Assembly (NCBI RefSeq): GCF_009720365.1
Contig: NZ_ML769319.1
Span: forward strand, 149,752-213,751
Reading direction: 5' to 3'
From: Catellatospora paridis
Lineage (GTDB): Bacteria; Actinomycetota; Actinomycetes; Mycobacteriales; Micromonosporaceae
DNA length: 64,000 nt
Shown here: one piece after another, positions 11,761 through 17,125 of the stretch
Position numbering within the stretch: the stretch's first letter is position 1
Layout: every line of letters starts with the position of its first letter
The notes under the pieces: generated by a model
The model's database searches: none
Told to the model about the DNA's origin: nothing
What the model saw: the letters and a program-made list of their open reading frames with translations, nothing else
Position numbers and translations under genes: made by a program

Positions 11761-12789
11761 ATGTCGGAACTGTCGAACCCTGGCCTGGCGGAGGCCGGGC
11801 TGCTCGACGAACCCACCACTGCGGACCTGCATGCCAAGGTCGCCGAGGCGTGGCGGGAGTTCGCCAGATCGCTGGCCGCGGCCCTGCCGACGCTACCGGT
11901 CGGCAGCGAACTGGAACTGGCTCTGGACCCGACCGCGTCGGGCACCGGCTCCGCCGTGTACGGCGTGAGCGTGGAGTGCCTGGAGGACGGGTCGCTGCAG
12001 GCGCGGGCGGTCAGCAACGCGAACCTGCCGGACGGGTTCCGGCTGGAGCGGCCCGCGATCGCGGCGATGGTCGCGCTGGGCTGGTCGCCGCCCGGCGTGA
12101 TGGCCGGGTCGCGGGAGAACTTCGGCATGACCGGAGCGGGCGAAGGGCTCGCGAACGTGATCACGCGGACGCTGCGCGACGTGTACGGCGCCCCGCACCC
12201 CGCGTTCCTGGTCTACGAGGCGCACGACCGCGAGGAGGAGCCGGTCGCCATCGAGCCGCTGGGCACCGCGCGGCACGAGTCGACGGTGGACGCGTTCCTG
12301 CCCTCGATCGACTCGCTCGACGCCAGTGGGCTGGAGCTGGGCGACCGGGTGCGCATCGTGGTCTCCGCGATGCTCAAGTCCGACCCGGACGAGCTGCAGG
12401 TGGACGGCGACGGTGACATCGGCATCCGGGCCGGTTCGGCCATGGTGTTCGTACGCGTCCGCGAGAACCCGCCGCTGATCGACGTGTTCTCGCCGGTGCT
12501 GACCGACATCGAGCCGACCGAGAAGCTGTTCGTGAAGCTGTCCGAGCTGACCAACCGCATGCCGATCGGCCGCCTCTACTGCACCGCCGGCACGGTCTGG
12601 GCCTCGATCCCGGTGTTCGGTCGCGACTTCCAGGCCAGCCATCTGGCCCTGGCGATCCAGGTGATGACGGGTCTGGCCGACGAGCTGGACGACCGCCTGC
12701 ACGGCGAGTTCGGCGGCAAGCGCTTCTTCGGCGAGGGCGACAAGCCCGCCGGCAACATCCCCGAAGCCCGCATCGGCCAGTACCTCTGA
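11761..12789 (+). CDS. YbjN / type III-chaperone-like protein with C-terminal GQYL tail
   Basis: 342 residues in two related alpha/beta halves. The first (about 20-150) has VAEAWREFARSLAAALPTL, LGW and ENFGMT blocks seen in actinobacterial T3SS-chaperone/YbjN-type peptide-binding domains. The second (about 175-330) has DGDGDIGIRAGSAMVFVRV, TEKLFVKLSELTN and GRLYCTAGTVWASIPV typical of YbjN. The last four residues are Gly-Gln-Tyr-Leu, the same tail as Bpa in this window and as the mycobacterial proteasome ATPase Mpa. ATG at 11761 with AGGAGG 8 bases upstream; an ATG ten codons earlier lacks such a site. Function unknown; a substrate-handling role linked to the proteasome is my inference. Confidence 0.8.
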   Translation: MSELSNPGLAEAGLLDEPTTADLHAKVAEAWREFARSLAAALPTLPVGSELELALDPTASGTGSAVYGVSVECLEDGSLQARAVSNANLPDGFRLERPAIAAMVALGWSPPGVMAGSRENFGMTGAGEGLANVITRTLRDVYGAPHPAFLVYEAHDREEEPVAIEPLGTARHESTVDAFLPSIDSLDASGLELGDRVRIVVSAMLKSDPDELQVDGDGDIGIRAGSAMVFVRVRENPPLIDVFSPVLTDIEPTEKLFVKLSELTNRMPIGRLYCTAGTVWASIPVFGRDFQASHLALAIQVMTGLADELDDRLHGEFGGKRFFGEGDKPAGNIPEARIGQYL

Positions 12790-16398: not shown

Positions 16399-16594
16399 TG
16401 TGTCCTCCAGAGTGACATTCGGCCGGACGCGCGTACCGGTGGCACGGCCGTTGGGGGGTGACGCCAAAGCTGTGGGCGCGCGGTCTTATGACCCACTGTG
16501 GCGTTCTACCGTGTCCCGGCACTCCCGTCAATGATCAACATAGGCCTGTGTCTCGGGATCTAGGATGGGTGGGTTCGACGCTGAGGAGGTCGCG

Positions 16595-17125
16595 GTGAGC
16601 CAGCAGCATCCCGAGGAGAAGAGTGTCGTGGTCGTCGGTCCGGACGGACAACCCATCGGCACGGTCGAGGTCAACCCTGACGGCGCCACCGGGCGCGAGG
16701 AGGATCCAAGCCACCTCATCGAGCAACCAGCCAAGGTCATGCGTATCGGCAGCATGATCAAACAGCTGCTGGAGGAGGTACGCGCAGCACCGCTCGACGA
16801 AGCCGGCCGCCAGCGCCTGGTGGAGATACACCGGCGCTCGATCGTCGAGTTGGAGGACGGACTCTCCCCCGAGCTGCGTGACGAGCTGGAGCGCATCTCC
16901 GTCGACTTCACCGAGGGCGCGACTCCGTCGGAGTCCGAGCTGCGCATCGCGCAGGCGCAGCTGGTCGGCTGGCTGGAGGGCCTCTTCCACGGCATCCAGG
17001 CGGCCCTGGTGGCCCAGCAGATGGCCGCCCGCATGCAGCTCGAGCACATGCGCAACATGCCCGCCCTGCCGCCCGGCACCCACGCCGAGCCCGGCAAGTC
17101 CACCAGCACCGGTCAGTACCTCTGA
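16595..17125 (+). CDS. bpa: Bpa, ATP-independent activator of the 20S proteasome
   Basis: 176 residues. The central four-helix region (SHLIEQPAKVMRIGSMIKQL, LDEAGRQRLVEIHRRSI, ESELRIAQAQLVGWLEGLFHG) matches mycobacterial Bpa/PafE (DUF2587). The C-terminus GQYL is the HbYX-type tail that docks into 20S proteasome pockets and opens the gate. Bpa forms a dodecameric ring and feeds unfolded proteins such as HspR into the proteasome in mycobacteria. HspR is also encoded in this window. GTG start with AGGAGG 5 bases upstream. The mature tail and length agree with the family. Confidence 0.94.
   Translation: MSQQHPEEKSVVVVGPDGQPIGTVEVNPDGATGREEDPSHLIEQPAKVMRIGSMIKQLLEEVRAAPLDEAGRQRLVEIHRRSIVELEDGLSPELRDELERISVDFTEGATPSESELRIAQAQLVGWLEGLFHGIQAALVAQQMAARMQLEHMRNMPALPPGTHAEPGKSTSTGQYL

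Follow-up and report, generated by a model that had tools for sequence, protein, structure and literature searches.

The window analysed here, a 64,000-nucleotide stretch of contig NZ_ML769319.1 from Catellatospora paridis, contains on its plus strand a gene for a two-domain TY-Chap protein at positions 11761-12789. Inspection of the sequence reveals a GAGGAGG stretch that closely precedes the ATG at 11761, and the translation of 342 residues ends in ARIGQYL followed by a stop codon, in agreement with the length and the IGQYL terminus given in the initial annotation. That annotation had placed the C-terminal tail at 12778-12789; the GQYL motif is present, but its codons occupy 12775-12786, and positions 12778-12789 specify Gln, Tyr, Leu and the stop. 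The earlier description of the protein as YbjN-like or type III chaperone-like was right. Residues 29-150 (11845-12210) match the TY-Chap3 domain (PF22552, 83.9 bits) and residues 193-324 (12337-12732) match TY-Chap1 (PF22551, 145.3 bits), a domain with the T3SS class I chaperone/YbjN fold, and both scores exceed by far the curated Pfam cut-off of 27. A linker of about 14 residues (12733-12774) separates TY-Chap1 from the GQYL tail, which is a putative docking motif for the alpha-ring of the 20S proteasome.

When tested, the protein displayed the T3SS chaperone/YbjN fold (alpha-bbb-alpha-bb-alpha). In the AlphaFold model the TY-Chap3 block (residues 31-150) has pLDDT values of 76-95, and the linker and tail have low pLDDT and are predicted to be disordered. 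Because the full-length model was poor (62.1) and a fold search with it gave no significant match, the best being CesT at E 0.1, the C-terminal domain was modelled alone. Judged by its fold, the protein is more likely a monomer or dimer than a ring of the Mpa or Bpa type. A Pfam search at E 0.1 returned no match to PF10759 (Bpa), to AAA ATPases or to PAC2, and kinship with Bpa, the ATPases or PAC2 proteins was rejected on that ground. To our knowledge, neither the T3SS class I chaperones (CesT, SycE, ExsC) nor YbjN carry a proteasome tail. The initial annotation knew of no YbjN-type proteasome partner, and a literature search likewise found no publication linking a YbjN or TY-Chap protein to the proteasome among open-licence papers screened by title and start of abstract, an absence which is no proof.

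The gene for the bacterial proteasome activator Bpa (16565-17125, plus strand; PF10759, 242.7 bits) lies 3.8 kb downstream of the TY-Chap gene, and its product ends in GQYL as the initial annotation had stated. Bpa accompanies the TY-Chap gene at 75 of 80 loci (the best 80 of 144 relatives), and in the five others the contig stops 1.2-6.0 kb past the TY-Chap gene. This linkage falls within generally conserved synteny, the neighbours being MobA-like, DUF6457, beta-propeller, Lrp and Bpa genes. An operon of TY-Chap with Bpa was rejected, since three opposite-strand genes lie between the two and no Bpa lies near two copies from another order (f22), around which no proteasome gene or Bpa occurs within 9.8 and 19 kb. 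ADP-ribosylation genes (ARG, macro, NADAR) are absent from the neighbouring genes scanned, a scan that covered part of the window's ORFs, and PADLOC gave only a chance-level match. The TY-Chap gene has no phage match and no relative on a viral contig. A phage or plasmid origin was rejected, as the one plasmid relative found is distant and tail-less; this relative (L199:6031-6981, OZ026885.1), from a plasmid of the methanotroph Candidatus Methylocalor cossyra, lies near transposition genes.

The host genome (8.97 Mb) encodes PrcA, PrcB, ARC, Pup and Bpa. Host ARC ends in TGQYL, and host PrcA retains the pocket residues R26 and K52 (alignment to 3h6f, positions counted by eye), which are described in PMC11953334 as contacting the Tyr and the Leu of GQYL, respectively. 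Among proteasomal ATPases of the pup_AAA type, 14 of 15 end in GQYL; of the 19 loci read, four were left out, two being truncated at the end of a contig and two being other proteins that matched weakly. The host itself supplies the exception, a divergent second ATPase of proteasomal type (L197:6201-8006, corresponding to G000:C5:192437-193942; TIGR03689, 749 bits), which ends in SRSNYG. One of 16 genomes surveyed lacks Bpa, and the Bpa proteins of the other 15 end in GQYL (seven), GMYL (four), GPYL (two), GLYL (one) or GQYI (one). Bpa tails other than GQYL occur in several lineages (L139, L135, L130, L132, L133, L134, L140, L137), and all 75 Bpa genes near the TY-Chap orthologues at the best 80 of 144 loci encode GQYL. 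Since the Bpa tail varies in this way and published work describes the Gln of GQYL as changeable without loss (PMC6017811, PMC12288473), GMYL is, on sequence grounds, a credible docking tail as well.

A match of four residues may arise by chance, as the initial annotation had cautioned, and this caution was borne out for a single genome. The degenerate pattern GGNCARTAYYTNTRR, which covers GQYL plus stop and a few other readings, has five sites in the 8.97-Mb genome, compared with four for the reversed control, so that GQYL taken from a single genome carries no significance of its own. ARC, Bpa and the TY-Chap gene account for three of these sites. The fourth site marks the C-terminus of a small protein from a family in which G[QP]Y[LV] is conserved there; the fifth closes an ORF of poor appearance with an ending similar to that of the small family. 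The small proteins, of about 84 residues and without a significant Pfam match (L172/L106 at G000:C28:13729-14058, minus strand; relatives L173-L183), have the G[QP]Y[LV] ending in all 12 copies and are patchily distributed, occurring in 10 of 121 genomes of the Micromonosporaceae. It is possible that they are a further GxYL-type interactor of the proteasome. The ORF at the fifth site (L102, G000:C5:16471-16485) ends in NVVSVGVPKTDSSSPGQYL, like the small family, and has an unconvincing upstream frame; perhaps it is a decayed copy.

Conservation of the tail among orthologues had been named beforehand as the key test of the docking idea, and it was found in every orthologue read. Every one of the best 80 of 144 relatives, all of them Micromonosporaceae orthologues, ends in GxYL (72 GMYL, eight GQYL); the best-matching named ones, from Catellatospora species, are 87-98% identical to the query. 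A further 23 genomes were re-queried, namely the 17 lowest-scoring ones and six that have a second copy, and all 23 orthologues end in GxYL (21 GMYL, one GQYL, one GLYL), the tail of G405 being read from the C-terminal piece of a gene split over two frames. These genomes and the 80 loci may share species, and so the two counts are not additive as independent observations. Both of the f22 copies, which carry extra N-terminal sequence, end in GGYL. Within the family, the last four residues were inspected at the 80 loci, in the 23 re-queried genomes and in G000, G095 and G196. Six of six paralogues read in the family lack a GxYL end (further paralogues in G355 and G339 were left out); those at L165-L168 have a TY-Chap1 domain close to that of the query, followed by a long additional C-terminal region.

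The constancy of the tail stands against the variability of the sequence that leads to it. Between the RFF motif and GxYL, the best 80 of 144 orthologues have 59 distinct stretches of 14-21 residues, whereas the G, Y and L of the tail are fixed in orthologues down to E 1e-109. In the same 80 sequences (best 80 of 144) the tail codons vary silently (Gly as GGC, GGG or GGT; Tyr as TAC or TAT; Leu as CTC, CTG, CTA or TTG), and all three stop codons follow the tail. Among stop-to-stop ORFs of at least 100 codons at these loci, GxYL ends number 156 of 7069, made up of 80 TY-Chap proteins, 75 Bpa proteins and one other, which is the only such end in the remaining 6914 ORFs; the loci (best 80 of 144) are related, so that these counts are not independent. 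The possibility that the tail is a chance or inherited identity without function draws on the pattern counts in one genome, which are near background and would be insufficient to dismiss it. It becomes very improbable given the fixed residues, the rewritten linkers, the silent codon changes and the single other GxYL end, and a chance match was rejected on the basis of conservation. As far as sequence comparison goes, the GxYL tail has been shown to be kept under selection within the orthologous group, in hosts that have a 20S core.

Selection on a C-terminus need not mean docking on the proteasome. When the C-termini of ten other neighbouring families were compared across loci, seven drifted (Lrp has 54 kinds in 78, DUF6457 61 in 78) and three were well kept, namely AIGG of MoaA (50/50), LLSR of a HAD protein (64/75) and ATLG of a periplasmic-binding-like protein (47/60). 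Since three of ten neighbouring families also have conserved ends, C-terminal conservation alone is no proof of docking. The tail could instead be a conserved signal for a partner other than the 20S core, such as another protein with a suitable pocket, or could pack on the protein's own domain. Conservation of Arg at position -6 (76 of the best 80 of 144) fits such a signal, and co-occurrence with the proteasome is uninformative on this point, as PrcB was found in all 40 genomes tested (16 + 24). Nevertheless, a signal of this kind is unlikely, since ARC and Bpa of the same genomes end in the same four-residue class and Thr at position -5 (60 of the best 80 of 144) is also the residue that precedes GQYL in ARC and in many Bpa proteins. 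Packing on the protein itself is further disfavoured by the predicted disorder of the tail and by the variable linker. Taken from its sequence, the tail is best described as a real, selected, proteasome-type end on a protein of chaperone fold.

The distribution of the protein centers on the Micromonosporaceae, where it was matched in 170 of 200 genomes. Among the matches listed for these 170 genomes, all reach the last profile position; three matched genomes (G352, G363, G379) fall outside both the matches listed and the re-queried set. The other 30 genomes have no match, and PrcB is kept in 20 of 20 tested among them, some of these genomes being incomplete, down to 69%. The protein therefore looks dispensable, and a housekeeping role is disfavoured. 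One genus of the family (g125, e.g. G305 and G342), with genomes of about 4.4-6.2 Mb, has PrcB in 13 of 13 tested and no TY-Chap match in the 13 listed. A search of 296 genomes of the class gave 19 matches, comprising three family members ending in GxYL, the two f22 copies and 14 rows that represent 12 more distant ORFs from proteasome-bearing actinomycetes; the profile had no match in the third f22 genome, G060, which is 78% complete. None of the 12 distant ORFs ends in GxYL (three of them, L088, L091 and L093, matched over both domains), which shows that the wider family does not generally carry the tail. The large neighbouring family f2 of the same order, which we take to be the mycobacterial family, yielded partial matches only. 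PrcB is present in 16 of 16 class genomes with a match; among the genomes tested for PrcB no proteasome-less genome with an orthologue was encountered, but the orthologues are confined to proteasome-bearing lineages.

Beyond the class, a search of 396 genomes of the phylum added three distant matches in other classes, which end in GAYL (G546), in GGYL (G527) and without the tail (G675). According to Pfam, the two with GxYL ends are single-domain TY-Chap1 proteins; these TY-Chap1/YbjN proteins terminate in GHGAYL (L187:5131-5586) and PGGYL (L188:9053-9568). The comparison with proteasome-less lineages consists of one gammaproteobacterial two-domain (TY-Chap3 plus TY-Chap1) relative, that of the Ca. 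Methylocalor cossyra plasmid, which stops soon after the domain and has no GxYL tail. We know of no gammaproteobacteria with 20S proteasomes. On a tree of the TY-Chap1 domain, GxYL must have been gained or lost at least three to four times. The tree has poor resolution and was built from sequences that still included part of the tails; all that it supports is that tail-bearing and tail-less TY-Chap1 proteins are interspersed.

We consider it reasonably probable (about 0.6) that the TY-Chap protein acts on the 20S proteasome of actinobacteria as a docking factor of the non-ATPase kind. It likely docks through its tail, and the free GxYL end would insert into the pocket between a pair of PrcA subunits, in the manner of the Mpa/ARC and Bpa tails. 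The TY-Chap domains may, like T3SS chaperones, bind clients along extended peptide segments, a weaker suggestion that comes from the fold. The protein would then keep clients that are unfolded or peptide-like tethered to the alpha-ring, or compete there with ARC and Bpa, and it is probably a client-delivery adaptor. The initial annotation had suggested a third kind of activator or a delivery factor, an idea that is partly supported. A tether or adaptor is more likely than a full gate-opening ring because a protein of this fold would probably be monomeric or dimeric and offer one or two tails, and full gate opening of the kind produced by the Mpa or Bpa rings is not expected of it.

Eukaryotes provide a precedent in PI31, a non-ATPase HbYX protein which sits on the alpha-ring and blocks its pockets; the folds of PI31 and Pba1-Pba2 are not known to be related to TY-Chap. 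Pba1-Pba2 are likewise non-ATPase HbYX proteins on the alpha-ring and influence the gate through two sites (PMC9065996), but they are eukaryotic, and the TY-Chap protein has no PAC2 match. Alternatively, the TY-Chap protein could be a 20S assembly factor, an inhibitor or a regulator of the gate or of pocket occupancy, its tail docking on the precursor or mature alpha-ring in the way of the eukaryotic Pba1/Pba2 HbYX tails, or blocking the pockets like PI31, without delivery of clients. This is possible, though clearly less probable than docking with delivery: a compact chaperone body with a flexible docking tail has the matching anatomy, and HbYX-dependent assembly factors occur in eukaryotes and archaea, a bacterial one being left open in the relevant passage of PMC4254994. 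On the other side, the protein lacks a match to a PAC2-type domain, a peptide-binding chaperone fold would suit clients better than ring assembly, and all 20 proteasome-bearing genomes of the family tested manage without it, so that 20S formation does not in general depend on it. An obligatory assembly factor is accordingly disfavoured.

Among bacterial systems, the proposed docking factor resembles Bpa (PafE), which is ATP-independent, has a flexible linker followed by a GxYL tail and naturally ends in GMYL in 4 of 15 genomes. Bpa differs in being a four-helix bundle that assembles into a 12-mer ring (PMC11953334), whereas the TY-Chap protein consists of two chaperone-family domains with no BPA match. 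The likeness to Mpa/ARC lies in the host ARC tail, TGQYL, but Mpa/ARC is a hexameric ATPase (PMC12288473) and the TY-Chap protein has no AAA domain. Cpa, the Cdc48-like protein of actinobacteria, is also an accessory 20S interactor, but it belongs to the AAA ATPases and lacks a classical HbYX terminus (PMC6017811). The same TY-Chap1 and TY-Chap3 families have been described as predicted peptide-binding chaperones of ADP-ribosylation conflict systems (PMC9503650). There they sit with ARG/ADPr genes, and the passages of that paper which treat them leave the proteasome unmentioned; the neighbours found here differ.

The bacterial proteasome activators named in part of a 2025 review are Mpa/ARC, PafE/Bpa and, more loosely, Cpa, and the same part states that nothing is known about how activator association is regulated (PMC12288473). 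Mpa/ARC, Bpa and Cpa are also the bacterial 20S interactors named in the relevant sections of PMC4254994, PMC12288473, PMC6017811, PMC11953334 and PMC8223512. Bpa first came to light when the M. tuberculosis genome was scanned for a C-terminal motif (PMC4254994), a scan which probably missed this type of protein because the matches in f2 are only partial. ProEnd, a database of HbYX-ended proteins, holds 982 from Actinobacteria, and its main text contains no mention of YbjN, GQYL or Micromonospora (PMC11475706); the TY-Chap protein could be in its list, unremarked. Bacterial 20S proteasomes might be served by an overlooked group of accessory proteins that dock through GxYL, all acting as substrate adaptors for a pupylation-independent route, a proposal that is tentative at best. 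Its members would be T3SS-chaperone/YbjN-fold proteins, in the two-domain form of the Micromonosporaceae and one other order and in the single-domain TY-Chap1 forms ending in GAYL or GGYL, together with the separate G[QP]Y[LV] family of about 84 residues. If docking by the TY-Chap protein is true, the protein would be an unrecognised partner of the proteasome, and peptide binding of the T3SS-chaperone type would be tied to proteasome function.
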